64,000 nucleotides of DNA, from assembly GCF_032854445.1 (NCBI RefSeq), contig NC_088295.1:1862501-1926500 (forward strand), in the 5' to 3' direction. Position 1 is the first letter of the stretch, and every line of letters starts with the position of its first letter. Positions 12,881-51,900 of the stretch are shown piece after piece. The notes under the pieces were generated by a model. It saw only the letters and a list, made by a program, of their open reading frames with translations. It had not been told where the DNA came from and ran no database searches. Both the position numbers and the translations under genes were made by a program. This stretch comes from Liolophura sinensis (taxonomy: Eukaryota > Mollusca > Polyplacophora > Chitonida > Chitonidae).

Positions 12881-12983
12881 ATGAGCTGGTGGGACACTAG
12901 TGGGCTGACCAGCTTTGCCTCCAATGTGGTCAAGAGTGCCCAGAAGAAAATAGATAAAGTTTTGGACATTGATGAAGAGCGAG
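12881..12983 (+). CDS. TMF1: TMF1 exon 1: N-terminal vesicle-capture motif
   Basis: Encodes the first 34 residues plus one base and ends at GAG|gtaaga. The MSWWD start followed by an amphipathic, basic stretch ending in DKVLDIDEE matches the conserved TMF1 N-terminus. That segment is known from golgin work as sufficient to capture Golgi-bound vesicles; here it is one separate exon. The in-frame non-ATG codons upstream are not needed. The ATG is chosen because the family starts at this Met-Ser-Trp. Confidence 0.95.
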
Positions 12984-24900: not shown

Positions 24901-27900
24901 AGGTAGCGTTATATTTTGTTTCGTTTGACATTATTATTTCACTTATTTAGTAAATACAGGGATTTGAATGTTGAATCAATTTTTTAAAGTTCTCAAAACT
25001 TCTCAAAACTTTTGTCACTTGTTTCAGTTTGTGGTTAAATGCTATTTTAACACTTGCTATTTTAACACTCTTTCAGTAACTTACTATGACCTCAACATTT
25101 ACATCCCAGTGCTGTTGTTTAGATGTAGTAGATTGTTGTGCTGGGTGTAGCTGATCATCTGACATATTTATGACTGAGCTTATTTATTTCTCTCATTTCT
25201 TCATGTGATGTGAACAGCAAAACAAATCTATATGATATTTAATGGATAAATATTTCTTTCTTTAATGACTTTAAATTGATCACTTTTCATAAGAATTTTC
25301 TGTGGACGTGTGCTACATATATTAGACATTACTGTCATCCTCTTCAGTTTTGTGTAGCAGAATTTGTTGGTTTAATGTCCAGATCAAAGGTACTGTAATG
25401 TTTTAAATTTTGTACCCAGCATGCATTTCTTGAAGGCAGGTGTTAGAGCATACGTGGAAACTTGAGAACATACTACAGCATTTTTGAAAACATGATGAAA
25501 CAATTTTGAGAACACACTGCAGAACATACTATAGCAACTTTGAGAACATAGATGCATGACAGCAACTTTGGGAACATAATGCAGCACCTTTGAGAACATA
25601 TTACATGCATGCATCTTGAGAACATACTGTATATAGCAGCTTTCAGAACATATTGTATACATCAGCTTTCAGAACACACTATATTTAGCAGATTTTAGAA
25701 CATTACAGCAGCTTTGAGAACATATTGTGTACAGCAGCTTTGAGAACATACTGTGTGCAGCAGCTTTGAGAACATATTGTATACAGCAGCTTTGAGATCA
25801 TACTGTGAAGTACTTAATTTTTGCATGGAACTAATTTCTGCGGATTTCGGGGTCATTAATTTACTGCGAAAAATAATTCCAGCGAAAAAAATATCCAATA
25901 TTGAATCATGTACAGGTAGTAGTAATAATGAAATGAAATCTTTGCCAGGGTGGCCGGAGCTGCTCTAAGAAAGCCCGACAGGCCAGCTAAATTTTTTAAA
26001 CTCTGGTGCTAAGTTATGGTGGGTATAAAACAAAGTGGGAGTTTATTCATCTTTAGTTTGATCAATTTTCGCTATGCCCGTAAAGTGAAAGAAAAATAGA
26101 TACCAGCACGTGCTGGCTTCTAATGAATGTCGCTCTGATACATGCTATCCCATTGGCTGTGTCTCTCTTGTATGCAGCAACTATGAAACCTATGCTATCC
26201 CATTGGCTGTGTCTCTCTTGTATGCAGCAACTATGAAACCTATGCTATCCCATTGGCTGTGTCTCTCTTGTATGCAGCAACTATGAAACCTATGCTATCC
26301 CATTGGCTGTGTCTCTCTTGTATGCAGCAACTATGAAACCTATGCTATCCCATTGGCTGTGTCTCTCTTGTATGCAGCAACTATGAAACCCATGCTATCC
26401 CATTGGCTGTGTCTCTCTTGTATGCAGCAACTATGAAACCCATGCTATCCCATTGGCTGTGTCTCTCTTGTATGCAGCAACTATGAAACCCATGCCATCC
26501 CATTGGCTGTGTCTCTCCTGTGGTCCAGTGAATGAGCTTCTAACAACCTGTGAAGTGTGTACAACCATACAATGGCTGTTTGACAGCTATGGCAATGTTT
26601 GCATTTTCTGACCTGCTACAGAGGACGATTAAAACTGAAAACAATGCAAAACTTACCCTGTTGCTTGATAAAGAATGAGGGACTGGTGCCGATAATGGTG
26701 AATTCATATGTTTGGCATTGAACTGCTCAAAAGGTGACAGGTCACTTCGCCAGTTGTTTAAAAGCACTCATCAATGATTCGAAAAGAAGTGACACCTGTT
26801 TGAGTACTGCTTACGGTAGGTGCGCAAGTAATCTTCTCACATAATGATAATCCATCCCCCATTGTTTTAATCTGTGATCCAGATCATGAGGATTAGCAAC
26901 ACCGCAGGAAACAAAGGAGGATTAAAACCACCCATGATGATACCTGTTGTATGTGCTCGAATAATTTTGGCTATATTATATCTTGGAAAATTTTGTTTTT
27001 CAGTATACTCTTAAATACGCAAAAATTAATTCCTGCAAACATATTTTTGGAGAAAATCCGCGAAAATAAATTCCAGCGAAAAATAAGTACTTTACAGTAT
27101 TGTATAGTAGTAGGACATATTACAGTAGCTTTGAGAACATATTGTATACAGCAGCTTTGAGAGCACACTGTATACAGCAGATTTTAGGACATATTACAGC
27201 AGCTTTGAGAACATACTACATACTGAGAACATATTGTATACAGCAGCTTGGAGAACATATTGTATACAGCAGCTTTGAGAACATACTACATACAGCAGAT
27301 TTTAGGACATTACAGCAGCTTTGAGAACATACTACATACAGCAGCTTTGAGAACATACTACAACAACTTTGAGAACATACTACATACATGTACCTTGAGA
27401 ACATATTGTATGTAGCAGCTTTGAGAACATACTACATTTAGCAGCTTTGAGAACATACTACAGCAACTTTGAGAACACACTACATACAGCAGCTTTGAGA
27501 ACATACTACAACAACTTTGAGAACATACTATATACATGTACCTTGAGAACATATTGTATACAGCAGCTTTGAGAACATACTACATTTAGCAGCTTTGAGA
27601 ACATACTACAGTAGCTTTGAGAACATATTGTATACAGCAGCTTGGAGAACGTATTGTATACAGCAGCTTTGAGAACATACTACAACAACTTTGAGAACAT
27701 ACTACAGCGACTTTGAGAACATACTACATACATGTACCTTGGGAACATACTGTATGCAGCAACTATGAAACCTATTTTGTGATACACTCTATTTGTCGTT
27801 GACAGAAAATGGCAGAGATGGCTGAGGTAATAAACGCCAGAGAAAATAAACTGGTGCAGTTAAGCAAAGAAAACAACGATCTCCTTGAGGCTAACAGCAT

Positions 27901-30900
27901 TTTGCGCAAGTAAGTTATGATGTTACAATGTTTTCTGCAGATCTGACACCATACCAGTGTATAGCTATGATGTTATGATGTTTCCTGCAGAACTGATAGC
28001 ATACCAGTGTATAGCTATGGTGTTACGATGTTTCCTGCAGAGCTGATAGCATACCAGTGTATAGCTATGGTGTTACGATGTTTCCTGCAGAGCTGATATC
28101 ATACCAGTGTATAGCTATGGTGTTACGATGTTTCCTGCAGAGCTGATATCATACCAGTGTATAGCTATGGTGTTATGATGTTTCCTGCAGAACTGATAGC
28201 ATACCAGTGTATAGCTGTGGTGTTACGATGTTTCCTGCAGAACTGATAGCATACCAGTGTATAGCTGTGGTGTTATGATGTTTCCTGCAGAACTGATAGC
28301 ATACCAGTGTATAGCTGTGGTGTTACGATGTTTCCTGCAGAGCTGATAGCATACCAGTGTATAGCTATGGTGTTACGATGTTTCCTGCAGAGTTGATAGC
28401 ATACCAGTGTATAGCTATGGTGTTACGATGTTTCCTGCAGAAATGATAGCATACCAGTGTATAGCTATGGTGTTACGATGTTTCCTGCAGAGCTGATAGC
28501 ATACCAGTGTATAGCTATGGTGTTACGATGTTTCCTGCAGAAATGAGCTGATAGCATACCAGTGTATAGCTATGGTGTTACGATGTTTCCTGCAGAACTG
28601 ATAGCATACCAGTGTATAGCTATGGTGTTACAATGTTTCCTGCAGAATTGATAGCATACCAGTGTATAGCTATGGTGTTACGATGTTTCCTGCAGAACTG
28701 ATAGCATACCAGTGTATAGCTATGGTGTTACAATGTTTCCTGCAGAGCTGATAGCATACCAGTGTATAGCTATGGTGTTACGATGTTTCCTGCAGAAATG
28801 ATAGCATACCAGTGTATAGCTATGGTGTTACGATGTTTCCTGCAGAGCTGATAGCATACCAGTGTATAGCTATGGTGTTACGATGTTTCCTGCAGAAATG
28901 ATAGCATACCAGTGTATAGCTATGGTGTTACGATGTTTCCTGCAGAGCTGATAGCATACCAGTGTATAGCTATGGTGTTACGATGTTTCCTGCAGAACTG
29001 ATAGCATACCAGTGTATAGCTATGGTGTTACGATGTTTCCTGCAGAGCTGATAGCATACCAGTGTATGGCTATGGTGTTACGATGTTTCCTGCAGAACTG
29101 ATATCATACCAGTGCATAGCTATGGTGTTACGATGTTTCCTGCAGAACTGATAGCATACCAGTGTATAGCTATGGTGTTACAATGTTTCCTGCAGAATTG
29201 ATAGCATACCAGTGTATAGCTATGGTGTTGTGATGTTTCCTGCAGAACTGATAGCATACCATTGTATAGCTATGGTGTTACGATGTTTCCTGCAGAATTG
29301 ATAGCATACCAGTGTATAGCTATGGTGTTACGATGTTTCCTGCAGAGCTGATAGCATACCAGTGTATAGCTATGGTGTTACCATGTTTCCTGCAGAACTG
29401 ATAGCATACCAGTGTATAGCTATGGTGTTACAATGTTTCCTGCAGAATTGATAGCATACCAGTGTATAGCTATGGTGTTTTGATGTTTCCTGCAGAACTG
29501 ATAGCATACCAGTGTATAGCTATGGTGTTACGATGTTTCCTGCAGAGCTGATAGCATACCAGTGTATAGCTGTGGTGTTACGATGTTTCCTGCAGAACTG
29601 ATAGCATACCAGTGTATAGCTATGGTGTTACGATGTTTCCTGCAGAGCTGATAGCATACCAGGGTATAGCTATGGTGTTACGATGTTTCCTGCAGAGCTG
29701 ATAGCATACCAGTGTATGACTATGGTGTTACGATGTTTCCTGCAGAACTGATAGCATACCAGTGTATGGCTATGATGTTATGACGTTTCCTGCAGAATTG
29801 AGAGTATACCAGTGTATAGCTTTCCCAATAAAAGATATGTGTATAGTTAAATGTGCCAAAGGGCCGTCTTAGTCTTAGCCATCTAATGAGTTGTCATGGA
29901 ATAGTAACCTGCCCCTGATCATGAGGTCAGGGTTCAGCCGTAGTTTAAAGCCCTGAAATTTGGCGAGGTGCGATGTTCTTCCATGGGCTCTGCCTAGTTT
30001 TGTGCCATTCATGTATAATAAACATACATACACATATTGTGTTAAAAGTGACATATTCTTGAGTACAGCATAAGGATACACTGAACAAATCAAGTAAATA
30101 TGGATATGTCCCACAAAATCCCTTGATCTACATGTAAAAATGGCATTAAATTCCCTAGTTTGATGACAAGGCTCTTTCGATTTGTTTTAAATCAGCAATT
30201 AAAATTTAAGCATTATTTTGTGTGTTCTCTGCAGATGTCTAGTATTTAGCCACATGTGTACACTTCAGTGTATGTACATGTACAAGTGGCTTTTTTGTGT
30301 GTAAGATTACCCAACACCACATGTACAAGTGGCTTTTTTGTGTGTATGATTACCCAACACTACATTTACAAATGGTTCTTTTGTGTGTGTGATTACCCAA
30401 CACCACATGTACAAATGATTCTTTTGTGTGTGTGATTACCCAACACCACATGTACAAATGGTTCTTTTGTGTGTGTGATTACCCAACACTACATTTACAA
30501 ATGGTTCTTTTGTGTGTGTGATTACCCAACACTACATTTACAAATGGCTTTTTTGTGTGTGTGATTACCTAACACTGTACATGTACAAATGGCTGTTTGT
30601 GTGTGCGATTTCCCAACGTTGTACATGTACAATGGTTCTTTTGTGTGTGTGATTACCCAACACCACATGTACAAATGTTTTTTTTGTGTGTAAGATTACC
30701 CAACACTACATTTACAAATGGCTCTTTTGTGTGTGTGATTACCCAACACTACATTTACAAATGGCTTTTTTGTGTGTATGATTACCCAACACCACATTTT
30801 TTGTGTGTATGATTACCCAACACCACATTTACAAATGTTTTTTTGTGTGTGTGATTACCCAACACCACATGTACAAATGGCTGTTTTGTGTGTATGATTA

Positions 30901-33900
30901 CCCAACACCACACATACAAATGGCTTTTTTGTGTGTGTGATTACCCAACACCACATGTACAAATGGCTTTTTGTGTGTGTGATTACCCAACACCACATTT
31001 TTTGTGTGTATGATTACCAAACACCGTATGTACAAATGGCTGTTTTGTGTGTATGATTACCCAACACTGTACATGTACAATAAGCAGACTAGAAGTGACA
31101 TTTATAGTTTCAGTATATACCTGACACACCCCGTAATTGAGAGCGAAACACTTCTGTTTATTGGATTTCGAGTATAAATAGTAGTTTTGATCGTATTTTT
31201 ATCGATGATTACATTTTGATCTCTGTGATGTGTTTTGATCGTATTTTGATCAATGATTACGTTTTAATCATATGTGTGATGTGTTTTGATCGTATTTTGA
31301 TCGATGATTACATTTTAATCATCTGTGTGATGTGTTTTGATTGTATTTTGATCGATGATTACATTTTAATCATCTGTGTGATGTGTTTTGATCGTATTTT
31401 GATTGATGATTACATTTTAATTATCCCTGTGATGTGAAAATGTTATTTTATAGACGTCTAGTGTTCAAACCTGTCAACAGTAACTACTGAAGTGTAGTTG
31501 TTTCTGACATATTCATGATTTGTGTTCCTCCTGATCTGCATGATTTTCACCTGTAACCTGTCTTATTTCACATGTATAGTCAGCTGAAGCAGTCTGAAGA
31601 GGCACATGAGTTAGAGATGGAGGATGTGAATGCACTGACGGAGGAGTTCACCCAGAGACTGGGTGAGGCCGAGAGGAAGCTGCAGATATCATTAAAGGTG
31701 AGTCAGACAGGTGTCATCTAGGGGTCTGTGCATTCTACATTAGTAAACAGGTAACAATATTGATGTACTGTACTCATGTGCTCAAGTCTTCTGTATCACT
31801 TTTCTGTACCAGTGAATCTGACTGCCATAATGTTCATAGAGCAACAGTGCTGTTGCTTAGAGTTCAAACCCAGGTCTAGCTGGCTTTCTCTCTGGGCATA
31901 CATGGGAAGGTCTTCCAGCAACCTACGGATGGTCAATGGTTGTGGGAAAGGCATAAAATGCATTTCAGATAAATATGTAAATAATGTTTATGGTGAGTTA
32001 TGTGTGTGTGAGTATGGTTTTAACCAACAGTTACGTAAGTCTCAGGCTGTTTTAGGAAATTATGAAAGAAGCAATTCTCAGTTTCTTGACATTTTGTCAG
32101 TTAAAAGTATTAGTGTTCAGTTGGTGTTAATACATATGACAGGGAAGTTTTTGTTATGAACATAAACTCATTTTTAATGTGGTAAACCTTTAATATAATG
32201 ACTGTCTATCTAAGTTACATGTTTATAATAACAGTTAAATATAACAGTTAACAGTTAATAATACTGTTAAATAATAACAGTACATGTATAGTGTTACCTG
32301 TACCTGGAAACCTGTGGCTATTAAAATAAAATAGAGAAAGTTTAGGTTACTCGTACCATTACAGGAGAAAGAAAGTCTGAAGAAGCAGTTGGAGATTACT
32401 CAGGTGGAAATGGTGAAAAAGTAAGTGAAAATGGCTGCAAGACATGTGAAGGGATTTTTACCAGTGTCTCCAGTAATGTGGAAAATGTCAACAGTATCAT
32501 TGAAAAATGGAAAATGTCATTCAGTTAAATTTTTGAATAATAATTTAAAATTGATTGTGCCTTACATTTACTGAAACAAGTAATCATTAATTACTTAATC
32601 TACAATTCCCAACCCTCTGGATTGTACCTATTTGCAAAAGAATGTGTTTTTGTTTGAGGACCATGTTTTTCTTGTCGGGTGTGTGCTTTAACTGCATACT
32701 TCAAAGGGGCACTTTTGTAACTACACTGTACCTGTGGTTTGAAATTGTTGTTTTCTCTTTTGATAGTTTTGATATGGCTGATTATAGAATCTTCTGTGTT
32801 GAAATGAAACCTTGATAACTTACCATATTATTGTTCTTCCAGAGGGGACACCTCAAAATTCCAGAAAATGATGGCAGAGAAGGATGAACAAATACAAGAA
32901 TTGTTAGCAGAGGGTAAGTTGGTTTCTCTTATGACTTATTTACCCGCACCTGCAAAACAGAGACAGGATACATTTACAAACTTATGTGATTCTTATTCTG
33001 TTGTTTTTGGAGTTTTCCCAGGATTAGGATTTCTATTCTCTTGAATGAAAAGTAAAGCAGTTATAAACATTTTTGTAAAAGTGTGAAATTTGCATTCAGA
33101 CTAAGTCAGTAATAAAGTTCATGTGTACTGGATGGATGACATTGAAGAAGCAGAAGAATTACAGCTCCTATAACGTTGTCAGTGTCCCTCGTTGTGTTTT
33201 CTGTTTGTAGGAGAGAAACTGTCAAAACAACAGTTACAAGGGAGTACGATTATTAAAAAACTCCGCTCCAAAGAGAAAGAGACTGAGCAGCTGGTCAAGT
33301 CCCAAAAGTGAGTTGTCTGCCCCCAAGTAAAGTTCTGTCTGCAAATAGTTCCTTTATTGTAACGCAACTGAATTTTCTGTGTGTGTTAAAAAGTTGGCAA
33401 ACCTTGTTTCTAATTGAATGAAGTGGATGGTATAATACCATATGAGGTAGAGTGCTAGTGCAGCACAATGACCCAGCAGCCTTTCATCAATGCTCATGCT
33501 GGCTTCCTCTCTGTTCATACCTGGGAAGGTGTGTCAGCAAACTGGCTGTGGTTTTCCACTGAGGTCTGTGATTTCCTCTCACTATATTGCTGTATGGCGT
33601 TGTGTAAGTGAAATATTCTTGAGTTCAGCATACGCAGCGCTGCATTGCGCCATGACGGTGAGTTACGCGCAGCACTGCATTGTGCCGGGACAGAGTGTCA
33701 CGCACAGCGCTGCATTGCACCGTGACAGTGTGTCACGCGCAGTGCTGCATTGTGCCGTGACGCGCAGCTCTGCATTGCGTCGTGATGGTCTGTTACGTGC
33801 AGTGCTGCATTGTGCCGTGACGGTGTGTTACGCTCAGCGCTGCATTGTCATGTGTTACACACAACACTTCATTCTGTCGTGACAGTTTGTTACACACAAC

Positions 33901-36900
33901 ACTGCATTCTGTTGTGACAGTTTGTTACAGATAACATTGCATTCTGTTGTGACAGTTTGGTACAGATAGCATTGCATTCAGTTGTGACAGTTTGTTACAG
34001 ATAACATTGCATTCAGTTGTGACAGTTTGGTACAGATAACATTGCATTCTGTTGTGACAGTTTGGTACAGATAACATTGCATTCAGTTGTGACAGTTTGG
34101 TACAGATAACATTGCATTCAGTTGTGACAGTTTGGTACAGATAACATTGCATTCAGTTGTGACAGTTTGTCACAGATAACATTGCATTCTGTGATTATTA
34201 CAGACAAAAGCTGGAAGCTCAGAGTTCAGAGTTGCAACATCTGAAACTGGTTTTGGATTCAAAAGAAGACATGGAAAAGAAGCAGACAGGTGAAAATTAG
34301 GTCCACATGACCATCACATTGATCTAATATTGTCATAAATAAACAATGACTAAAACTACTGGAGGGGAGCGGGTGGTAGTCAAGTGGTAGTCAGGTGGTT
34401 AAATGTGCTTGTCTTTCCTTTGCTAGGACAGACGAGCACAGGTTCAGCCTTGTACAGGGAATTTATTGAGAAATAAGTCATAGACCTCCAGGGAAATCCA
34501 TGTTTGGAAAAGCTTGGAATTTAGAGTGGTTTGTGAACAGCATAAGATTGAATAAAAGATTTGGGAGATTAAGATATATGTAAATGTGACCTGTGTGTAT
34601 CTGCATTCCTCCCGTATGTACGGGAGTTTTTTATAGCGATTTGGGATAAAAGGTGAAGTTGAGAAGTCATTATTTTCCATCCACTTCAGGAAGAAATCTG
34701 CTAGCAAACCCACCTGGTATCCTCATAATATTGACAAGATGAAATGGAAATGAAATCATGGTAATTTGAAACTGAGTTGTTCATTTTCCAGATGCTATCA
34801 GTCAGTTGAACAATGCTGTACAGCGTCAGGAGAAGGAGATTGCCAGGCTAAAGGTTTGTGAGTTATCAGAACTGGTTAATACTGGTTAATAGTTGTACAT
34901 ACAGCTTGAACAGCTGTGTCATGACAGACTCCATCATGACATTACCTGTGTCATAACAGAATTCCTAACAGCAAACAGTGTGCTGGTCACACACCTTCAT
35001 TGCTTGAATGTGACCGTAGATGTGGGACAGCAAACCCTGAGGAAACCAGTGCTGGTCACGCACCTTCATTGCTTGAATGTGACAGTAGATGCAGGACAGC
35101 AAACAGTGACGAACACTCCCTACCTGTGAAAACATTGAAGAAAGACCACTCAAAAGAATCCTTAATTCTTTTCAAATTTTCTTTTCAAAATACCTTTCGT
35201 AGGAAATATGAAACATGTGTTTGTTAGTGCTCAGATCCTGATGTATTTGTGGTTTCCTACTATTAAAGTGAGCTGGTGCATTTCGTTCTGTGAAGTATAT
35301 TGTAAACAGGCTTTTTGTTGCGTAAAGGGAGGTGGAACCTTTTATAATCTGACTGTAGCTACATGTAAGTCTCCTGTCCTGTTAGTGCAGGATAGGAAGT
35401 ATGAAAACACTTATAAATAGTGTTTCCTGTTTGGTATGAGTGAACACCCATTAGACATGGTCCCTGATCGCCTGTCCAAGCTGGTCTGACTGAGTGAGAC
35501 TGATGGCGTCGTTGTTGTAGGCTGAGCTAGATGATAACCAAGAGAAGATACGAGGGATGCAGACTGCGCTTGACACCTCCTACAAGTAAGTCATTTTCAC
35601 TGAAACCTTTCTGATGTCTGAAACTTTCTCTGTCAAGATCCAGTGCTGGCAAGATAATGGTAAACGATGAATGAAGCTGTTCCGATAAATGTTTGGTTTG
35701 ATTGAGATACTCTTATGTTGATGTCTGATGTTCATTGTGTTCTGTGTGTGTCTATCAGGGAGATCGCTGAGCTGCACCGCGCTAATGCAGCCAAAGACAG
35801 CCAGGCGCAGGAAGTGGCAGTGAGTGCAGAGATGCAGGCGCGTGAGGAACTGCGCTTAACAGTGGAGCGTGAAAATCAGCGCTACCAACTGGAGAAGGAA
35901 GGCCTTATCATGCAGGTGGTTATTTATTTATGTGCTCAAGAAATTGTTCACTTTTTTGACCACAGTGAGCTTTATGAGGGAAAGATACCAGAGTTTTCCT
36001 TCACCATGTAACTGAAAACCTGACTTACAGTAAGTGACCTAAAGTTTTGCACATGGGTTACCATCATTTACTTTCGCACGACCTGAGCTGGCGTCAAAGA
36101 TGACACAAGAGATTGATTAACCCCCGGCCCGTTTCATTATCCAGCATGGCACTTGGCAGCTCTAGTTGCTAATTCTCACCCATGAATGAAATTGAAGAAA
36201 GTATTAAGACATGCGATGAGTATTTCAAACCTTTAAATCCCAAACACTGTAGAAAACAATGACCAGGCCAAACAAGGAATGTACATGCATATTGTACACT
36301 GCAGAAGAACTGATTATTCGGGTTAGGCCTACCTGGAAGTTACCTCACTCCGTTATCTGGTGAACGGTTGTCTGCTGAGAGCCCTCATGCAATGAAAATG
36401 TGTACAAATGTATATCACCGGCCCGGATAGCACATTTGGTAGAGCATCCGCTTCGGGAGCGGTAGATCCAAGGTCAATCCTGGGTCAAGTCACACGTAAG
36501 ACTTTAAAAGAGGAAGTTGTGGCTTCCTCGCTTGGCGTTCATTATGGATGAGATAGTGCAACGACTGGTTGACTCGTATCAGTATAATGGCTTGGGCGGG
36601 GAGGCTTACTTGCCTTCGGTAAGTCGTCTCAGTGAAGCAGCACTAGATAAAAGAGCGGTGGAAATCCGTCCTGCAACAGGGAGGGTACATTACATGCACC
36701 CGTCATCGTCATATGACTGAAAAATTGTTGAGCACGACGTTAAACCCCAATCACTCACTCACTCACAAATGTATTTCAGCTAAAAACGAATTTCACTGAG
36801 AAATAACTGTCATCAGCTTCCATATCCATGCAATTGCAAATTAGTATCTCAGTCTACACGCACATTTTGTTTCTTTATAGTCTGAACTGTCCTCCTATTG

Positions 36901-39900
36901 CAGAAGAGTTCGTTTTCCCACGTTTTTATATCGGGAACATCCCATTAAACATAGAAAACATACTCCATGCAAGCTTTCCGAAAACTACCTCTGTTTACTT
37001 TACCCCTTTCGGTAGCACTGTGTCAGAGTCCTGCATATCAGGAGATAAGATTGTCATTACATTAGGAGTTCACACAACACCATCACTGTCTTTATAAACA
37101 AAATGTTTAATTTATGATTTCCTTCATACAGTTTTGACCAGACGTGATTTACGTGTTTCCAGCGACAGATAAGATTATTATTCCCCAAAATTGGGGGGAT
37201 CGATGGGTAGATAAGTGGAAATTTTGAGTTCTGTTATTGTAATTGGCTTGTATCTACATGTAGATAAAACCAGTCACGAAAATTTCATCTGAGCTCACTC
37301 AATTAAGTATTAAGTAAATTAAGTATTCATGTTTATGAAATATGGGCAGAAGTTCAAATTTCATATGTGTGCAAATTAAGGACAAGAAATGTATAACTGC
37401 AGTGGGGCAAATGCACATGTGTAGGTGTCGCATTGGTTGCAATTTGACATCTTCATTTCGTCTGCAGGTAGGCCTGGTGTGCATGTGTTGATTCACAGTA
37501 TGCTAAAGTCTGCTACAGCTTTGTATACAAAGAGCCCTGCAGTATAAAAATGGATATTTGACATGACACTCCGCATGGGCAAAGTCACGGTTTATCTGCT
37601 CAGAGTTTTTTTCCCCAAATTCCCATTTATCACAAAATATTATAATAAAACAATCAACCTGTTGCAAAGTGCACGTACTAAAATTATTATGATTAAAACT
37701 GAGGAAAACATGAACTGTTGGTGGTAGAAGCATAGACTTACTGCTCAGTGAAGCGTGAGCTTATTTAACACATTCTTGAACTGTCATTATAATCCCCCTG
37801 ACCACCTGATGCTCTCCTGTGGCACACAGCCAGTAAGAATCAATGCAATGAATCATGGGATACACTTTCCGAGTCCCAAGACGAAACTTTAGGTCATTTA
37901 CCAAAGGCTAAAGACGGCCAAGTCAGGAAAAGCCTGAATTTCAGATCAGTCAAGGTCTTACAAACTGTAGGGAGTCAGCTGTTTAACAGCCTCAGTGTCA
38001 TACATTTTACTGAACCTCCTCTCAAAAATGTGCAACGTTGTACATGTTTTGACTGGCCCCGATTGTGTCCGCTTCGGGAGTAGTAGATTCCCGTGTCACA
38101 CCTAAGACCTTAAAAGAGGAAGTTGTGACTTGCTGGCTTGGCGTTCAGCGTAAAGGGGATAGTACAACGACTGGTTGACACGTATCAGTATAATGGCTTG
38201 GGCAGGGCAGCTTACTTGCCTTCGGTAAGCTGTTTCAGTGAAGCAGCACTGGATAAAAGAGCGGTGGAAATCCATCCTGCAACAGGGAGGCACATTACAT
38301 ACACCCTAAGGATTCCTTTGTCATCATATGACTGAAAAATTGTTAAGTGCGACGTTAAATCCCAAGTACATGTGTTGTGTTTTACAGGACGTTATCATTT
38401 GTCTGTTCAATGCGTGAAATTCTGATTTTGAGCAAAGCGGTTTAATTGTTGTAAACTTATAAATGTTCCAATGTGCAATAAATTTATAACGTGAACTTGT
38501 TGGCAGATTGAAGACTTAAGGATCAGTTTGTCGCGTATGGAGAAGGAGCATGGGAGGAGAGAGGACATGTTGAGACAGGAAATCTCTGACTTACAACAGG
38601 TAATAACTGATGGTCAGTCTCAAGTATCTAGACATCACCATGAAGATCAGGAAGAGAGTCAACTGATTTCAGGTCAAAACCAGTTTTTGGTATAGAAGTA
38701 TGACCTAACATGCAAAACTTTTGTGGCTTGGATTCTGTGGAATAACTGTAACAGTGTTCAAGAAAATGTTACTGTGAATGTGACAGTTTGAATGATGTTG
38801 AATTCTGTGAACTAGCTTGTAAATGCTGCTCTTTTGTTGTTGTTGTATTCAGAGGTTACAGGAAGATGAGGCCAGAAACCAGGAGCTCACTCAGTCTGTT
38901 ACCTCAGGTATGGTGTAATTGTGTCACTAGGGCGCCGTACTCAGGTATGGTGTAATTGTGTCACTAGGGGCCGTATTCAGGTCTGGTGTAATTGTGTCAC
39001 TATGGGGCCGTACTCAGGTATGGTGTAATTGTGTCACTAGGGGGCCGTACTCAGGTATGGTGTAATTGTGTCACTAGGGGGCCATACACAGGTATGGTGT
39101 AATTGTATCACTAGGGGGCCGTACTCCGGTATGGTGTAATTGTGTCACTAGGGGCCGTACTCCGGTATGATGTAATTGTGTCACAAGGGGGCCGTACTCA
39201 GGTATGGTGTAATTGTGTCACTAGGGGGCGTTCTCAGGTATGGGTGTAATTGTGTCACTAGGGGGCCGTACTCAGGTATGGTATGGTGTAATTGTGTCAC
39301 TAGGGGGCCGTACTCAGGTATGGTGTAATTGTGTCACTAGGGGGCCATACTCAGGTATGGTGTAATTGTGTAACTAGGGGCAGTACTCAGGTATGGTGTA
39401 ATTGTGTCACTAGGGGGCTGTTCTCATGTATGGTGTAATTTTGTCACAAGGGGGCCGTACTCAGGTATGGTGTAAAACTGTACTCTGGCACAGGTATACA
39501 ACATAATGATGGATTTAAAATAAAATGTATTTTAAGTCTAGATCCTGTGAACAGTAACAGAAGCAAACAATCACACAACAAGTCAGGGACCTTGGTTTGT
39601 CAACAGTGTCAATAATCACATGGTTATAACTGTTATGGAAAAGCTTTGGGGTTATCAGTATTTATAACAGTGTCGCCCATAAAATATAACAAGGTGGCTT
39701 CTGACAATAGTGAGTAGTCACAAATTTAAATAAAATAATGAGCTAATTGTTTCACTTGTTACCATAGTACCAGGGTTTCGTGACCAAATAATGGCGAACT
39801 TTTAAATGTTGCACAGCCATTACGTGTTCTATTACATAACACTACATTGTGTTCATTCTTGAGGACAATTTAGATTTATTGTTATTGCAAGTAAAAAGAG

Positions 39901-42900
39901 TGGTGTGTCCTGGTACCACCTTTATACCAGCCAAGTTACAGTTTTATCCATTTAAGTTTTGTATTAAAATCGTGGGGCTGTCTCCACGTGGGGCTATCTC
40001 CACGTGGGGGCTGTCTCCACGTGGGGCTGTCTCCACATGGGGGCTGTCTCCACGTGGGGCTATCTCCCCTTGTGGGCTGTCTCCACGTGGGGCTGTCTCC
40101 ATATTTGTGCGTAATCACATCACCTTCAGTCTACTGCTTTCATCTGTAATTTGGTTACCACCACTGAAAACTGAGATAATTTGTACTGTCTGTTCCCACT
40201 CCACAGCGACTCGCCCCCTCCTTCGTCAGATAGAGAACCTCCAGTCCACCTACATGGCCCAGTCCAGCTCGTGGGAAACTGTGGAGAAAAACATCACAGA
40301 GAGGCTAGGTAAGGAGAAACCAGCTCTGTATGTGTAGTGGGTTATTGTCAGCCCATCTCATGGGAACTGTGGAGAAAAACATCACAGAGAGGCTAGGTAA
40401 GGAGAAACCTGCTCTGTATGTCTAGTGTGTTATGGTCAGTCCAGCTCATGGGAAACCTTGGAGAAAAACATCACAGAGAGGTTAGGTAAGGAGAAACTTT
40501 CTCTGCATGTGTAGTACGTTATTGTCAGTCCAGCTCATGGGAAACTGTGGAGAAAAACATCACAGAGAGGCTAGGTAAGGAGAAACCTACTCTGCATGAT
40601 ATGGTCAGTCCAGCTCATGGGAAACCGTGGAGAAAAACATCACAGAGAGGCTAGGTGAGGAGAAACCTACTCTGCATGATTTGGTCAGTCCAGCTCATGG
40701 GAAACCGTGGAGAAAAACATCACAGAGAGGCTAGGTGAGGAGAATCCAGCTCTGTATGTGTAGTGTGTTACTGAACAGGTCTCATGGATTAAAGATTTTA
40801 TAGAAGTTGTGTTGATACAGAGAGAGAGAGATGGCCATAAGTAATCCTGGTGCCATGTGATGTTTGTGGCAGGTGAGGCTCAGATGCATTTAGCCATGGC
40901 TACAGAGAAGGAGCGAGTGGCCAGTGAGAAGGTACTGGAGTTGACAGCACAGGTAACCACACTAGAGGCTCAGAACACCCGGTACAGACAAGAGAAATCT
41001 CAGCTGACCGCTCAGAACGAAATGCTCAAGACCAAAGTAGAGATGCTTGAAGATGGAAAAAACAAGTAAGATCATTTTCGAAGGTGCCTGCAGTTTTTTT
41101 GTTTCGGACCAGTTAAGCAGTTTGTGCAGAGCCCAGCGTGTGTCTGTGAAGGACAAAATGACACATGGGCACAATCACTGGTCAGAACTTAATTGCCAAA
41201 AGGAGGCTTGGGAACTTTTTTGTTTAAAATGTTTAAAAAAAATGATTTCATGAGATCAGGTGATGGCAGATGTAATTTGGAGGTAGAGTAAGGCAGTTTT
41301 AGACTTTCTTGAGAAACTTCAGGCTATTTTCTGACCTTCAATTCCAGTGCCTGTATAAACAGTGTGGATATTTATAGACTCTGCATATATAAATTTTCTG
41401 AGAGTCATTTGCATGAAAATATGTTATACCTCCATCCAGATATGTTCTTTCTTACTGTTGTTTTCTTCTCTCAGTGAGCGTGCACAGATCGAGACGATCC
41501 AGCAGAGTCTGAGCCAGGAGATCAGCGAACTGAAGCGAGAGAAGGTAAGTGAGTCTGTCATCTGTCAGCTCTACCTGTGAGGTTTGTTTACTTCCGTCTG
41601 TGACCATGTACAGATAGAGGCCATCCAGCAGAGTCTGAGCCAGGAGATCAGCGAGCTGAAGCGAGAGAAGGTAAGTGAGTCTGTCATCTGTCAGCTCTAC
41701 CCGTGAGGTGTGTTTACTTCCATCTGTGACCATGTACAGATAGAGGCCATCCAGCAGAGTCTGAGCCAGGAGATCAGCGAACTGAAGCGAGAGAAGGTAA
41801 GTGAGTCTGTCATCTGTCAGCTCTACCTGTGAGGTTTATTTACTTCCGTCTGTGACCATGTACAGATAGAGGCCATCCAGCAGAGTCTGAGTCAGGAGGT
41901 CAGCGAACTGAAGCGAGAGAAGGTAAGTGAGTCTGTCATCTGTCAGCTCTACGTGTGAGGTTTATTTACTTTCGTCTGTGACCATGTACAGATAGAGGTC
42001 ATCCAGCAGAGTCTGAGCCAGGAGATCAGCGAACTGAAGCGAGAGAAGGTAAGTGAGTCTGTCATCTGTCAGCTCTACCTGTGAGGTTTATTTACTTCCG
42101 TCTGTGACCATGTACAGATAGAGGTCATCCAGCAGAGTCTGAGTCAGGAGGTCAGCGAACTGAAGCGAGAGAAGGTAAGTGAGTCTGTCATCTGTCAGCT
42201 CTACCTGTGAGGTTTATTTACTTCCGTCTGTGACCATGTACAGATAGAGGCCATCCAGCAGAGTCTGAGCCAGGAGATCAGCGAACTGAAGCGAGAGAAG
42301 GTAAGTGAGTCTGTCATCTGTCAGCTCTACCCGTGAGGTTTGTTTACTTCCGTCTGTGACCATGTACAGATAGAGGCCATCCAGCAGAGTCTGAGCCAGG
42401 AGATCAGCGAACTGAAGCGAGAGAAGGTAAGTGAGTCTGTCATCTGTCAGCTCTACCTGTGAGGTTTATTTACTTCCGACTGTGACCATGTACAGATAGA
42501 GGCCATCCAGCAGAGTCTGAGCCAGGAGATCAGCGAACTGAAGCGAGAGAAGGTAAGTGAGTCTGTCATCTGTCAGCTCTACCTGTGAGGTTTATTTACT
42601 TCCGTCTGTGACCATGTACAGATAGAGGCCATCCAGCAGAGTCTGAGCCAGGAGATCAGTGAACTGAAGCGAGAGAAGGTAAGTGAGTCTGTCATCTGTC
42701 AGCTCTACCCGTGAGGTTTATTTACTTCCGTCTGTGACCATGCACAGATAGAAGCGATCAGTGAACTGAAACGACAGGAGGTAAGTGAGTCTGTCATCTG
42801 TCATTTCTGCTTGCATGTGTTGCCATACAGAGGTATTGATCAGGCACACCTCTGTGTGTTCTGCTTACCTCCAAACCAAAAGATTGTTTGAAGCAAGAGA

Positions 42901-45900
42901 GTGATACAGTGCATGAATCCCATGACTCTCAGGCATTTGTTCTGCCATTTTGCCAAGCTGCGTTGTTGAATATGCTTTTTCTGAATACAGATGCTTCTGG
43001 AAAATCAGCTTGAGATGGTGAAGACCAAGACAGAAAATGAAAAGAAAAAGGTGGCATTACTCCAGGAGCAGCTCAAAGAAAAGGTTTGTGAATATTGTTT
43101 GAATACGCTTTTTGCAAGGCCATTCGTGATAACGTGTCAGGACGTCCTATTACTTTCTCCATGGCTTGTTTGAGGGTTGAGTTTGAAGGTCATAATTCAG
43201 ACAATGTAAACTAAAACAATGCCGGAAGTCGGTTTCCTCAGTTCATTGTGTAAAATGAAATTAGAAGTTATACCAAAACATTCACCCCGAGCTCTCAAGT
43301 TTCCTTCCCAAAAGCACTCAAGTTTCCTCCACCCAAGCACTCAAGTTTTCTCCACAAAAGCACTCAAGTTTCCTCCACCCAATCAGCAAAGTTTCCTCCA
43401 CCCAAGCACTCAAGTTTCCTCCACCCAATTGTGGAACCACCCAAACTGAAAAGTTTGGCATTCAGCAACTATCAAACAATGAATGAAATAAATATTTTTC
43501 TTTACCTCCCAGAAATCCAATGAATGTCAGATGAAACATCTCAGCGGTTATGTCACATCTGCTTTTGTGCAGACATGAAACCCTGGTTGAACAGCAGAAT
43601 AAAGTACCATTGCCAGTATTTGTGGAGTACTATTTGATACAGTAATAGTGAGACCATTTGTAAATGTACTGGACGAGGCTGGATTACAAATTGTTGTGAT
43701 GCTTTGATGTTGATGATTAAAACCTTTATGCTGCTGTATAGTGCGTGGTTGTTAATTATGTCCGACTGCACAAATGACCCTTAGTCAGTAGTTTATAACA
43801 ACGTTGGGGTAGAGCAAGCTCTGTGAAGCTTTATTCCCGCCAATATTGTCGTGTATGGATATATCTCTGTATGATATATATCTCTCTATGATATACATGT
43901 ATATGGTATATCTCTCTATCAAATATATGGTATATCTCTCTATGATATATATGGTATATTAGTGAATAAAAAATCAATTAATCAGTCAATCAAACAGTTA
44001 TTTAGAATAATATTTTTGGTGACTGTCAGGAAAAAGAGCGTCCACGATCCAGAGGGACGCCCTCACCTGCCCAGTTGAACCGACAAGAGAGTATCCCCAG
44101 TATCCCTGACCCCCTCACTCAGCTGCCTGCCTTCACACAGGTAAGGTTATTTGTTTATTTATTTATTAGGGGTTAAATTGACAAGAGGCCATGTTTCACT
44201 GGTTACGTGTTACCATTTGTCATTTATCACTTTGTCATTGCTTCTCTGGTTTACTCTCTATATCGTAAATCTTTCATTATATTTTACGCTGTACTCCAGA
44301 ATATTTCACGTGTACTATGGGCAGGGAAACTGGAAACCAGGGGGAGCCTAGTGTACTACCTACCATATTGCTGTCTGTCTGCATACTGTTAAGGCTAATG
44401 TAACAGATGTAGAGACCACTGGTGCGGAATGAGGTCTGCCATAGCCCTTTATGTTGTATCCCTTCTTAATTTAGGTTTTTGCTGGTGGACTAAGCATCCT
44501 CAAGGTCTGGCCCCTTTACATCATTTTAGTGTTATTATATGTTAAATGTGATGACAATACAGCATTTTGAGTACTTCTAGACCAGTGATATCTCATGAAT
44601 TTCACTTAACATTACCGTATGTTTTTGACCTAAATCTGCTAGGGCTATGTGGCTAGGGCAAGGGTGGATTTACAAGAGAACTGTCAGCACATTTCACAGG
44701 TTATGTTGGACTCTTTGCCAATTATCATACTCTGGTTTTTATGTTTCTAAAACTAAACTACATTTAACTTAACTTATTAAATTTAGTGTTCTTGTATTGA
44801 CATGTAAATGTGTATGTAGATGTAGTGACTACTGTATAATGATATCTGTGTGCTTGTATTGATATGATTTTCTGCACTTATAAGTCGAGCCAAGCGAAAA
44901 TACTAGCGAGATTGAGATTAGAACTCAAGACTTAGCTTTCTATCTCTATCGCTGTACCAACTGAGCTGGACACCATAAGTTGATGGTTTATGTGATGGCT
45001 ATATGAGGTGCTGTATATTTCCTTATTTTCAATGTGGATGACATAAAAAAAAATGTTGTTTTCAATATATTACATTTCCAGCATCTGTTGTTTTGTGTTA
45101 TTACAAATTTGGGCCATTAAATCTATGGTAAAGTTTCTTTTGGCCGTCAGTTTATTACATTTCTTGACCAACCTTTTGGAAAAGTGAAGATATCAGCATG
45201 TTGTTCATTGGATAGTCTAATCATGTCAGAAAGAGCTGTTCCCAGAGCTGAAGTTACTGTTGGCATGTCTGCATTCTACAGTCTTTTGACCATTAGAACA
45301 GTGTTCCAAAAAGTAGTTGGGGTAATGGGGAAATAAATGAGGGACACCTTTTTGGACTTAAGGCCCGAGACATCAGTCCACTGTGCCTGTCATGTGGATA
45401 TCTAGCAGGTACACGTCTTTGGTGGGGTCAGTGTGTAGCTAGAGCTGTGTGTGTAGACAGGGCCATGTAGAGTCTGACCTCAGGCTATCTGTACAGACTC
45501 AGGGAATACAGGATGTACACATTGATTTGTCTGTAGAGTGTACCAACTTACTGGTTAACTGTTGACTTGTATGAGACCCCAATTCTTCACCCCTGTCCCC
45601 ATCCTAACCCCAACCTCAGTCCTACCCAGCCATCAGTGTCACCATTGTCCAGGAACAGCTTAAGGCCTGCTTGACTGGCTCAGCCCTGAACAGAGCTGTC
45701 TGAAGTCACTGAGCCGTGGCATGCAGTCTGATCTTATTATAACTCGCAGCCTATGCACACCCTATACTACTGTTTATCTAGGTCAGTGTCAGTTTACTGA
45801 ACAGACACCTGCAATGTGTATATCAAATTTAGCCATAGTTTCTAATCTGTTCATTGTAATGTTAATATAATTGTATTAAAAAATACAGAAAATTTACCTT

Positions 45901-48900
45901 TATTTAAATGTATGATGTGAAAATATTAGTACTCCGTTTAATCTAAATGATGATGTTGTTCAGCTAACCCAAATGAAACCCCTGTGCTGGTACACGGATT
46001 TTGTCTGTATTAGTGGTTTACGCATACATGGCTTGGTATCGCTTCTCGGCCTTTTGGCTAAGATCAAAGTGTAGTATCTGTTCTTATCAGCTTAATATCT
46101 GATACGTCCTCCATTGGAGGACATCGATATTAAACTGATTTTTGGAACTTGGTGAGAGACTTGGGGCTTGCTCCATCCTTACCACGGGTTAGCCTGGTAT
46201 TGCAGTACCTCCAGGAATGGCCCACTTCTTAATCAAATCAAAACCAGATTTCCATGCTGCGTTGTATAAGAGCATGTTAACACATGTGATCTGTGTTGTA
46301 GAGAATGAGAATTGCTTATTCAGAACAGCTGCTTAGTGATTTATCAGAGCAGCTATATTCTCTTTACATTTGCTGATGGAAATCTGTAAGTGAGTGGTGA
46401 TATATTTCTGGGATAAGCAACATGATGAGAAGGGATACATCACAGTTGTAAATCAGCTGTGCAAGGTGTTGTGATCGCCTTGTAAACTCTTTGGGGAGCA
46501 CCTGTGTGCAGGTCTTTCATATGTATCTGCATAGTAAATTATCAGCTGTCTGTACTTCAGTACTTAGCCAAATTCATCCACCTTTTCACATATGTAAATT
46601 ATCAGCTGTCTGTACTACACTACTTAGCCCAATTCATCCACCTTTTCACATATGTAAATTATCAGCTGTCTGTACTTCAGTACTTAGCCAAATTCATCCA
46701 CCTTTTCACATATGAAAGAGCAACATTCAGTGCCATTTATGTGCATTTTACTTTGATTTTGGAGACAAAACTACATTGGCTGGATTGGCCAGTGCTCAGA
46801 GCTTCACAAAAAGTATAATTTTGTCAGTCAGCACAGAATAATGCTTTCAGAATATGCTTGAATAAACACCTTGCAAACATGCGGACAGTTTGAAGAATTA
46901 CAGTAGTCGGAATGTATTTGGTCCAGGTTGAATTTATTTCAAAATTCAATAGTTCTGCTTATGGAATTGTGTTTTTGTTGTTTGTTTTTGTTGTTTGTTT
47001 TTTTGGGGGGCTGGTACTTTGAACATGTTCTATTTGAGGCATTCACTGCAGGGGCCTGGCTGACTGAACAGACTTCTGTGTCTTTTTCTCAAATACATGC
47101 CTTCTCCAGTGTACCCACATGGCCAAGATGCCATCATATGTGGAGACGTTTGCCATGTGCTCAGATTGGTGCTTTGTACAAACTTTCTAACTTTATTGTA
47201 CCATAACAAAACTGAAGGTAAAGACCCTGGGATATATGAACTTATGTTGAGACGTTTGTTGTGGACCATGAAAAAACTGAAAGTAAATACCCTGGGATAT
47301 GAAGCTAAATACCCTGGGATATGTGAACTTATGTTTGATACGTTTGTTGTGGACCATGACAAAACTGAAAGTAAATACCCTGGGATATGTGAACTTATGT
47401 TGAGACGTTTGTTGTGTACCATGACAAAACTGAAAGTAAATACCCTGGGATATGAAGCTAAATACCCTGGGATATGTGATCTTATGTTGAGACGTTTGTT
47501 GTGTACCATAACAAAACTGAAGGTAAATACCCTGGGATATGTGAACTTATGTTGAGACGTTTGTTGTGTACCATGACAAGACTGAAAGTAAATTCCCTGT
47601 GATATGAAGCTAAAGACACTGGGATATGTGATCTTATGTTGAGACGTTTGTTGTGTACCATACCAAAACTGAAGGTAAATACCCTGGGATATGTGATCTT
47701 ATGTTGAGATGTTTGTTGTGTACCATGACAAAACTGAAAGTAAATACCCTGGGATATGAAGCTAAATACCTTGGGATATGTGATCTTATGTTGAGACATT
47801 TGTTGTGTACCATAACAAAGCTGAAGGTAAATACCCTGGGATATGTGATCTTATGTTGAGATGTTGGCTGTATGCACATCTTTGGTGTTTTGTTCAAACT
47901 TTGTAACTACATATTGTACAAGGACAAAACTGGAGATGGAGTTGTTTTCTTGCCAGGATGAGCTGGTGGAGAGGAGCCTGATGATGACCCCTCACTCTCC
48001 TAATGGGAACAAGATGACACTGTATGAGACACTAAGACAGACAGGAGCAGCTAATCTGCTGGAGAGCCTCACATCACAGCTCAAACAGAGGGAAGGGGAG
48101 ATAACACAACTACAGGTAAGGGCCATATGGCTTACTGCTCAGGAGAGTAAAATGAGCCAAATCTGTTCCATGGTTCTAAGACAGCTTGTCCATACAAGAA
48201 CATACACTGTTTCTTCTGATGGTATACAATGAAAAAGTTTTAGATAGAGCAGAACAGTGAAATACTTCAGCACTAATCACGTTAATGAAATTGTGCTGTG
48301 ACGTCTTTGCCAGAGTGAGATAGAAGGACTGGAAAGGACGAGAGAGTCGATGGCACGAGAATTGGTGAACCTATCTACCCAGAATGATGACCTCAAGGAT
48401 CAGATAGAGGGTCTGCCCCAGCTGGAGGCCAAGCATGCGGTATGTTGCACTGATAAATTTCCTAATCATCATTCATACAAGTTTTTTCTGAACCCAAGGT
48501 TGTCTTTTCTCCTGGTTAGTGTACAGTGCTGTCCGTCATGTTACAAGTCAGGATAAAGGATAAGGGGGTGGATTTAAGCTTACATTTTGCACATTTAGTT
48601 TTGATAATTCAGCTTTATAGGCTTTAAAATTACTAGATTTTATATCTGTAAATTTGATCAGTTGTGCATGTGGCTCTTGAAACCTATGTGTTTTAAACCT
48701 TACATGACTTACAGTCCTGTACATGTATGTGTCACCTGCATTTAGCCATTTAGCCAGCTGTATTTGGTCAGGTGTGTTTCATGAGTTATATTCCTGTACA
48801 TGTCACATATTTGGTCAGGTGTGTTACAAGAGTTAGTCCAGTGCATGTCACCTGCATTTGATCAGGTTTGTTACATGAGTTAGTCCAGTGCATGTCTCCT

Positions 48901-51900
48901 GCATTTGATCAGGTGTGTTACATGAGTTAGTCCAGTGCATGTCACCTGCATTTGATCAGGTTTGTTACATGAGTTAGTCCTGTGTGTGTCACCTGCATTT
49001 GATCAGGTTTGTTTTATGAGTTAGTCCTGTGAGTGTCACCTGCATTTGGTCAGGTGTGTTTCATGAGTTAGTCCAGTACATGTCACATGCATTTGATTAG
49101 GTGTGTTACATGAGTTAGTCCAGTGCATGTCACCTGCATTTGATCAGGTGTGTTACATGAGTTAGTCCCATGTGTGACACCTGCATTTGATCAGGTGTGT
49201 TACATGAGTTAGTCAAGTGGATGTCACCTGCATTTGGTCAGGTGTGTTACATGAGTTAGTCCAGTGCATGTCACCTGCATTTGGTCAGGTTTGTTACATG
49301 AGTTAGTCCAGTGCATGTCACCTGCATTTGGTCAGGTTTGTTACAAGAGTTAGTCCAGTGTGTGTCACCTGCATTTGATCAGGTTTGTTTTATGAATTAG
49401 TCTTGTGTGTTTCACCTGCATTTGATCAGGTGTGTTACATGAGTTAGTCCAGTGCATGTCACCTGCATTTGATCAGGTTTGTTTTATGAGTTAGTCCTGT
49501 GAGTGTCACCTGCATTTGATCAGGTGTGTTACATGAGTTAGTCCAGTGCGAGTCACGTGCATTTGATCAGGTTTTTTACATGAGTTAGTCCAGTGAATGT
49601 CACCTGCATTTGATCAGGTTATCAGGTTTGTTACATGAGTTAGTCCAGTGCATGTCACCTGCATTTGATCAGGTGTGTTACATGAGTTAGTCCAGTGAAT
49701 GTCACCTGCATTTGATCAGGTGTGTTACATGAGTTAGTCCTGTGTGTGTCACCTGCATTTGGTCAGGTATGTTACATTAGTTAGTACTGTGTGTTTTACC
49801 TGCATTTGATCAGGTGTGTTACATGAGTTAGTCCAGTGCGAGTCACGTGCATTTGATCAGGTTTTTTACATGAGTTAGTCCAGTGCATGTCACCTGCATT
49901 TGGTCAGGTGTGTTACATGAGTTAGTCCTGTGTGTGTCACCTGCATTTGGTCAGGTATGTTACATTAGTTAGTACTGTGTGTTTCACCTGCATTTGATCA
50001 GGTGTGTTACATGAGTTAGTCCTGTGTGTGTCACCTGCATTTGGTCAGGTATGTTACATTAGTTAGTACTGTGTGTGTCACCTGCATTTGATCAGGTGTG
50101 TTACATGAATTAGTCCAGTGCGTGTCACCTGCATTGGATCAGGTTTATTTTATGAGTTAGTCCTTTGAGTGTCACCTGCATTTCATCAGGTGTGTTACAT
50201 GAGTTAGTTCAGTGCATGACACCTGCATTTGGTCAGGTGAGTTACATGAGTTAGTTCAGTGCGTGACACCTGCATTTGGTCATGTGTTTGATGAGTTATA
50301 GTCCTGTGCGCATCACCTGCATTTGGTCAGGTATGTTACATGAGTTAGTTCAGTGCGCGACACCTGTATTTGGTCAGGTGTGTTACATGAGTTAGTTAGT
50401 TACATGAGCAACACCTGTATTTGGTCAGGTGTCTTACATGAGTTAGTTCAGTGCGTGACACCTGTATTTGGTCAGTTGTGTTACATGAGTTAGTTCAGTG
50501 CGTGACACCTGTATTTGGTCAGGTGTCTTACATGAGTTAGTTCAGTACGTGACACCTGCATTTGGTCAGGTGTCTTACATGAGTTATAGTCCTGTATATG
50601 TCACCTGTAATTGATATCTGTAGAACTCTCTCTGGGAGATATATGGGGAGAAAGTTTCATTCACCTTTGTTTGGTTTCTGTTGTGGTAAACTCTTGATTG
50701 ATGTGATGTGTTATTGGCAGGACTTGGAGCAGAGATATAATGCCCTCCTGCAGATGTATGGAGAGAAAGTGGAAGAGACAGAGGAACTGAAATTAGACCT
50801 GCAGGATGTGAAGGAACTCTACAAATCACAGGTATATCCCTCCCCTCTACAAATCACGGTATATCCCTCTCCTCTACAAATCACAGGTATATCCTACCAT
50901 CTACAAATCACAGGTATATCCTCCCCTCTACAAATCACAGGTATATCCCTCCCCTATACAAATCACAGGTATATCCCTACCGTCTACAAATCACAGGTAT
51001 ATCCTCCCCTCTACAAATCACAGGTATATCCCTCCCCTATACAAATCACGGTATATCCCTCCCCTCTACAAATCACAGGTATATCCTCCCCTCTACAAAT
51101 CACAGGTATGTCTCTCCCCTCTACAAATCACAGGTATATCCCTCCCCTCTACAAATCACATGTATATCCCTCCCCTCTACAAATCACAGGTATATCCTCC
51201 CGTCTACAAATCACAGGTATATCCTCCCCTCTACAAATCACAGGTATGTACACACCACTGGAAAACACAGTATATCCCTCGCCTCTACACTCTCACGGTA
51301 TATCCCTCTCCTCTACAAATCACAGGTATAGCCTCCCCTCTACAAATCACAGGTATATCCTCCTCTCTACAAATCACAGGTATATCCTCCTCTCTACAAA
51401 TCACAGGTGTATCCTCCCCTCTACAAATCACAGGTATATCCTCCCGTCTACAAATCACAGGTATATCCCTCCCCTCTGCAAATCACGGTATATCCCTCCC
51501 CTCTACAAATCACAGGTATATCCTCCCCTCTACAAATCACAGGTATATCCTCCTCTCTACAAATCACAGGTATGTACTCCCCGCTGGAAAACACGGTATA
51601 TCCCTCCCCTCTACAAATCACAGGTATATCCTCCCCTCTACAAATCACAGGTACTTCCGTCCCTTCTACAAATCACAGGTGTATCCCTCCTTTCTATAAA
51701 TCACAGGTATATCCCTCCCTTCTACAAATCACAGGTGTATCGCTCATTTCTGTAAGTCACGGGTATATAATTCTCGCTACAGATCACAGGTGTATCCGCC
51801 CCTCTACAAATCACAGGTATATACTCCCCTATACAAATCACAGGTATATCCTTCCCTTCTATAAATCACAGGTATATCCCTCCCCTTTATAAATCACAAG

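Follow-up and report, generated by a model that had tools for sequence, protein, structure and literature searches.

The question raised by this locus is whether a row of near-identical short copies, located behind exon 18 of a TMF1-like golgin gene, is spliced into the transcript as a series of additional exons or is passed over as an intronic repeat. The window analysed here is a stretch of 64,000 nt, and all the positions given below refer to it. The assembly to which it belongs was published as Liolophura japonica, and a correction renames the species L. sinensis.

The TMF1 gene and the array behind exon 18

The gene and the features around exon 18 are the following:

12881..52765, + strand: TMF1-like golgin gene, modelled without the array as 24 exons encoding 1460 residues
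40873..41065, + strand: exon 17, ending in phase 2
41475..41544, + strand: exon 18, 70 nt, phase 2-0, with acceptor tctctcag and donor AAG/GTAAGT; the array repeats its final 57 nt
41614..42678, + strand: nine full copies of 57 nt each, phase 0-0, starting at 41614 + 126n (n = 0-8)
42748..42780, + strand: short copy of 33 nt, phase 0-0, encoding IEAISELKRQE, with 24 nt missing in frame
41545..42747, + strand: ten spacers of 69 nt each, GTAAGT...ACAG, every one with an in-frame TGA
42991..43083, + strand: next exon after the array, phase 0, encoding MLLENQLEM...

The identity of the gene, which had been proposed from the sequence alone, was confirmed by protein domains and by homology. The Pfam domains TMF_TATA_bd (2.2e-29) and TMF_DNA_bd (9.1e-18) were found in a coiled-coil protein, as befits a golgin, and the closest among the best 120 of 1175 protein matches were TMF1 proteins from molluscs, reaching 65% at most over residues 1080-1460. 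GT and AG were present at all 23 introns of the model and the phases matched. The model has two weak spots, the 9.5-kb intron at 18261-27805, which may hide missing exons, and the segment 14831-14990, a doubtful intron inside which the frame changes. This segment lies in the first large coding stretch (14427-14991), where one frame is open to about 14995 and another from before 14991; the frame change reflects a short intron or, alternatively, a difference of 1 nt close to a run of G.

The ten-copy tandem array at 41475-42780 was borne out base by base. Tandem Repeats Finder (TRF) gave a period of 126, with 96% matches and 0% indels, and a search of the 609-Mb assembly with the unit returned 11 matches among the best candidates scored, all of them in the array. 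The units number eleven (that of exon 18, which occupies 41488-41544, plus nine full copies and the short one). The full copies encode IEAIQQSLSQEISELKREK, with A>V and I>V variants, and differ from one another by 3.0% on average (2.8% in the exon), six distinct DNA sequences being present among the nine exon copies. None of the ten copies contains a stop codon and the reading frame is unbroken. GTAAGT is the donor of every copy, whereas the acceptor is gtacag in the nine full copies and gcacag in the short one.

The sequence-only reading had also proposed that the acceptor of the copies had moved to an inner AG, converting a phase 2-0 exon into a phase 0-0 exon. The phases agree with the spliced gene model, and comparison of the copies one by one upheld the acceptor shift. 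Upstream of the inner AG, exon 18 carries two more, tcAG at -15, which is its real acceptor, and tgAG at -11. Both are missing in 10/10 copies, which leaves a single AG, at the phase-0 position. The old acceptor would yield 70-nt, frameshifting exons. Taken alone, the loss of the two AGs could be due to chance. Since all the copies are in phase 0-0, the frame would survive the inclusion, skipping, gain or loss of any number of them.

Some of the history of the array can be proposed from its edge. Exon 18 and the short copy agree at 16 of the 22 nt upstream of gtgcacag (1 in 20,000 shuffles was as good), which argues that the acceptor region of the copies is homologous to that of exon 18 and that both boundaries of exon 18 were included in the first duplication. 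Compared with the consensus of the copies, the short copy has changes at 6/33 sites in the exon and at 2/92 in the flanks (P 0.004). A two-stage model may be drawn up, in which exon 18 and its two boundaries were duplicated at an earlier stage, giving rise to the present short copy. Loss of the two upstream AGs would then have left one phase-0 acceptor, 13 nt into the old exon, thus avoiding the frameshift, and the nine full copies would have arisen more recently, when the unit of exon 18 plus spacer multiplied in a burst, presumably through unequal exchange. The copies are predicted to be spliced as phase 0-0 exons, lengthening the coiled-coil rod of the golgin. The combination, at 42748-42803, of a diverged short exon with near-identical flanks is explained by the two stages only in part, and it is the least well explained point.

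Arrays spanning exon ends in the same gene and genome

In amphioxus, minisatellite-like duplications of exon-intron boundaries, named mirages, were described in Adh, globin, troponin C and PGBD5 genes and, in the available parts of these papers, were reported to leave splicing undisturbed (PMC3087553, PMC3902484). The exon 18 array shares several of their features. The tandem array as a whole (41484-42848) contains the donor of exon 18 (41544) together with 61 exonic nt, and its units, like those of amphioxus (which, as far as the available text goes, often carry AG/GT signals), are arranged in tandem across an exon-intron boundary. The copies are homogenised inside the array, and the short copy at the edge has diverged, again as described for amphioxus in those portions. 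By the features compared, therefore, the exon 18 array is a boundary-spanning minisatellite of the mirage class, which the sequence-only reading had missed. It differs from the amphioxus arrays, as these are described in the accessible text, in its chiton host and in its unit, which comprises a whole in-frame exon, the two boundaries of that exon and a spacer of intron size. Neither chiton mirages nor an array at TMF1 exon 18 were found among the titles and abstract beginnings listed from the open-licence literature.

Tandem arrays cover 16,415 of the 39,885 bp of the gene span and contain four of the 23 TMF1 donors (38907, 40308, 41544 and 50831) and none of the 23 acceptors. Given this cover, four donors are no more than would be expected by chance, and no enrichment at exon ends is claimed. 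Each of the three sister arrays starts within the final 5-49 nt of an exon, whose donor it includes:

38903..39475, + strand: sister array with a 37-bp unit, carrying the donor of exon 38853-38907
40260..40770, + strand: sister array containing the last 46 nt of exon 40207-40308 and its donor
50817..51944, + strand: sister array with a 27-bp unit, carrying the donor of exon 50721-50831

The second of these starts some 1.2 kb upstream of the 126-bp array and holds five extra copies of 45 or 46 nt at a spacing of 80-89, which would shift the frame. The 27-bp array stays open in the frame of its exon for hundreds of residues past the donor, within a 390-residue stop-to-stop frame at 50583-51755, so that retention of that intron would not soon stop translation.

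Boundary arrays were also present elsewhere in the same genome, where 30 CCT/TCP-1 loci were examined out of 50 exon matches. Loci L015, L023 and L026 showed arrays made of the 3' end of an exon plus its donor (66, 60/120 and 109 bp, respectively), and L024 a 41-bp array whose unit carries an acceptor. In L022 an array stops 38 nt before the matched exon, and the remaining loci of the 30 had no array at the match. Tandem repeats make up 41% of the window, in 43 merged arrays, versus 12% of the 30 CCT loci.

In the seven other boundary arrays, the stretch of the unit that derives from the intron does not exceed about 43 nt, less than animal introns usually need; in the exon 18 array it measures 69 nt. 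Among the eight, the exon 18 array alone pairs an intron-sized spacer with an exon length divisible by three. The other boundary arrays look unspliceable, and the finding is of interest because these two properties occur together in a class that otherwise has this appearance.

Inclusion or skipping of the copies

Splice sites were scored with a matrix built from the 23 introns of the gene itself, which is small and crude, the real sites being scored leave-one-out and the array sites not. The donors of the full copies have the sequence of the exon 18 donor, the best of the gene (12.7), and that of the short copy reaches 11.2. The array acceptors, in contrast, are weak, ranging from -2.0 to 0.6 (short copy, -0.3); 2/23 real acceptors score below 0.4. 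All the array acceptors fall below the 95th percentile of intronic AGs (6.3), as do 7/23 real acceptors. Sister-array copies have better acceptors (2.3-8.2), yet splicing in any one of them singly would shift the frame. The other introns of the model measure 160-9545 nt (160 being the doubtful intron, followed by 173), and a 69-nt intron would therefore be the shortest in the gene, a size that is not unusual in animals generally.

The substitutions lean towards coding copies. Seven of the 12 variable exonic sites are synonymous and five nonsynonymous, or 6:4 without the two sites where only exon 18 differs, whereas the expected synonymous share is 0.19-0.27 for transition weights 1-4. The simulated P for this excess was 0.003-0.042 (0.006-0.052 for 6:4) over transition weights 1-8; the changes are few, and P rises to about 0.05 at high transition weight. 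The short copy gave a dN/dS of 0.12 against exon 18 and of 0.08 against the consensus of the copies (one-sided Fisher 0.023 and 0.011, respectively), values based on six or seven changes (4 synonymous, 2-3 nonsynonymous); a dS of about 1 speaks for an older origin of this copy. Exon and spacer were equally variable in the ten units (8/57 and 8/69 sites, P 0.79); nucleotides 1-30 are invariant across the ten spacers, all eight variable sites lying at positions 31-65. The sister array of 80 to 89 bp was tried as a neutral control (six rows, of which row 40351 has a 1-nt deletion) and was set aside, since its 3 synonymous and 3 nonsynonymous changes plus the frameshift, counted by eye, were too few.

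Taken together, the sequence evidence gives roughly even chances that the copies of the 126-bp minisatellite are spliced in as phase 0-0 exons and lengthen the TMF1 rod. Inclusion would be favoured by the open, in-frame copies and their splice motifs, the lost AGs, the synonymous excess, the low dN/dS of the short copy, the strong donors and the 69-nt spacer. The points against it are real: the acceptors are weak, duplicated exons that are skipped have precedents, the intron is short, and exon and spacer vary alike. A further proposal is that the minisatellite, having acquired a unit with a 69-nt spacer and just one phase-0 acceptor, works as an exon factory, in which each added repeat would be a new exon plus a new intron, the length of the tether being set by an exon VNTR that would differ between individuals and, through partial skipping, between transcripts; we put this forward tentatively, as possible but on the unlikely side. 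The suggestion made from the sequence alone that the copies are chosen one at a time is unsupported and was rejected, because the copies hardly differ and, being in phase 0-0, could be combined in any number. For the same reasons the array does not resemble a Dscam-type mutually exclusive cluster, in which one of several diverged alternative exons is used; here the mean exon difference is 2.8%.

The strongest alternative, to which we give somewhat less than an even chance, is an ordinary intronic mirage seeded at the donor of exon 18, with the pseudo-exons skipped and exon 18 joined to the exon at 42991. The amphioxus mirages (PMC3087553, PMC3902484) provide precedents, and so does, in the available part of the report, the earthworm metallothionein gene, where tandem exon copies also lie beside minisatellite-like intron repeats and the duplicated fourth exons are missing from the transcript (PMC12783039). 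The weak acceptors, the equal variation of exon and spacer, and the three further TMF1 donors inside arrays unable to give in-frame exons singly point in the same direction. So does the junction itself, since joining exon 18 to the exon at 42991 reproduces the spacing of TMF1 from other animals. This was compared in 203 proteins from three protein searches (among the matches listed), of which 59 aligned too weakly and 1 did not span the junction. Of the 143 spanning homologues, many of which are isoforms or near-duplicates, 140 were gap-free from 25 residues before the junction to 15 after it and the other three lack residues in that interval; the skipped form is therefore the ancestral protein, and an array-like insertion was absent from all 143. 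Neither the synonymous excess nor the low dN/dS of the short copy, however, would be expected of an intronic mirage. Such a mirage also requires chance to account for lengths divisible by three (about 1/3 for the unit, and again 1/3 for the 24-nt deletion) and for the absence of both competing AGs from every copy.

Among the matches listed by the three protein searches, which drew on short assembled contigs as well as other sources, no TMF1 transcript of a chiton, and none of the species itself, was recognised. These covered the best 120 of 1175 matches (best, 65%), 81 matches listed (best with full cover, 63%) and, in the third search, two short fragments (74% and 81%) that cover no more than a quarter of the query. 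One match (P0203), a 96-residue frame on a 1,791-bp contig, corresponds at 81%, across 21% of the query, to the exon at 42991 and has intron-like flanks; this contig is possibly genomic DNA of another chiton.

It is improbable that the older short copy alone is a real exon, adding 11 residues, and that the nine full copies are a recent burst, skipped or used accidentally. The coding signal is indeed strongest in the short copy (4 synonymous and 2-3 nonsynonymous changes), which differs from the consensus at 6/33 exonic sites, and the full copies, with a mean difference of 3.0%, are young. Its acceptor is nevertheless equally weak (-0.3) and its donor slightly weaker than theirs (11.2 vs 12.7), and no sequence feature would favour it for the spliceosome. 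We regard as very improbable a noncoding function in which the array is a row of strong donors (U1 sites) that help to define exon 18 or protect the long transcript; the donors are the best of the gene and the first 30 nt of the spacer are invariant, but the coding-like changes would be left unexplained. Equally hard to credit is an assembly artefact in which one or two real copies were inflated: tandem arrays are prone to inflation, HiFi coverage is just 14x, and an aberrantly assembled mirage in a draft genome is mentioned in the available text of PMC3087553, but six distinct exon sequences occur among the nine full copies, the window contains no N, and the mean HiFi read (8,347 bp, in the available text of the assembly paper, PMC11068029) exceeds the 1.3-kb array.

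Relation to known systems and possible consequences for the rod

The array has partial counterparts in other genes. As in the kringle IV-2 coding VNTR of LPA (PMC11201333), the unit contains a complete exon plus spacer and is phase-compatible (57 or 33 nt, with 69-nt spacers); in the available part of that report, copy number alters the length of the LPA protein and leaves the frame intact. The LPA unit measures 5.6 kb, has two exons, is translated and is polymorphic, whereas the TMF1 unit is 126 bp with one putative exon. The array also resembles the gain of introns by tandem genomic duplication at AG/GT proto-splice sites, insofar as described in the text available from PMC3087553 (a further paper on this process is PMC4974935), since its spacer consists of a donor-side and an acceptor-side piece joined together; that process gives one new intron, in contrast to the ten consecutive putative introns in TMF1.

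In schistosome micro-exon genes, small symmetric exons stand in series; they differ from one another, and the frame is kept when they are skipped. Small symmetric exons are common to both systems, but the TMF1 exon was copied almost unchanged and the schistosome exons are diverse.

The origin of new introns and exons is an old question, and mirages were proposed as one source, with support that is no more than suggestive. The globin paper, in its available portions, offers a hypothetical model in which a copy is recruited to serve as an exon, and for this model degenerate repeats in one intron are suggestive (PMC3087553). If the TMF1 copies were spliced, the process would be caught in the act, with ten new exons and ten new introns derived from one unit, nine of the new exons being still about 97% identical, and the array would provide a natural length series for a golgin. 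Whatever the RNA does, boundary-spanning arrays recur in a mollusc, and those described in the papers found, as far as available, are from amphioxus.

Inclusion of all ten copies would add 9 x 19 + 11 = 182 residues (19 per full copy). This is exactly 26 heptads, a one-in-seven coincidence and no more. The alpha helix rises about 0.15 nm per residue, so that 182 residues would correspond to some 27 nm. Golgins have extended rods that are thought to capture vesicles, according to the available text of PMC4707255.

The hydrophobic spacing of the repeated unit read from the sequence, 3-4-4-3-5, held when re-examined. The array has a hydrophobic period of 3.80, compared with 3.57 at the junction without the array and 3.63 in the 31 residues downstream; the 152 residues upstream of the junction have their peak at 4.16, with lesser power at 3.5-3.6. 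Because of the period of 3.80, a long regular heptad coil would not be expected inside the array, but rather breaks or skips.

Two minor repeats were also observed in the gene. The large TMF1 exon contains an in-frame direct duplication of 108 bp (16089-16308), which gives two similar stretches of 36 residues. Similar open stretches (EAALDKRAVEI... and kin) recur in TMF1 introns at 36508-36720, 38129-38335 and near 52246, and are probably a dispersed repeat.
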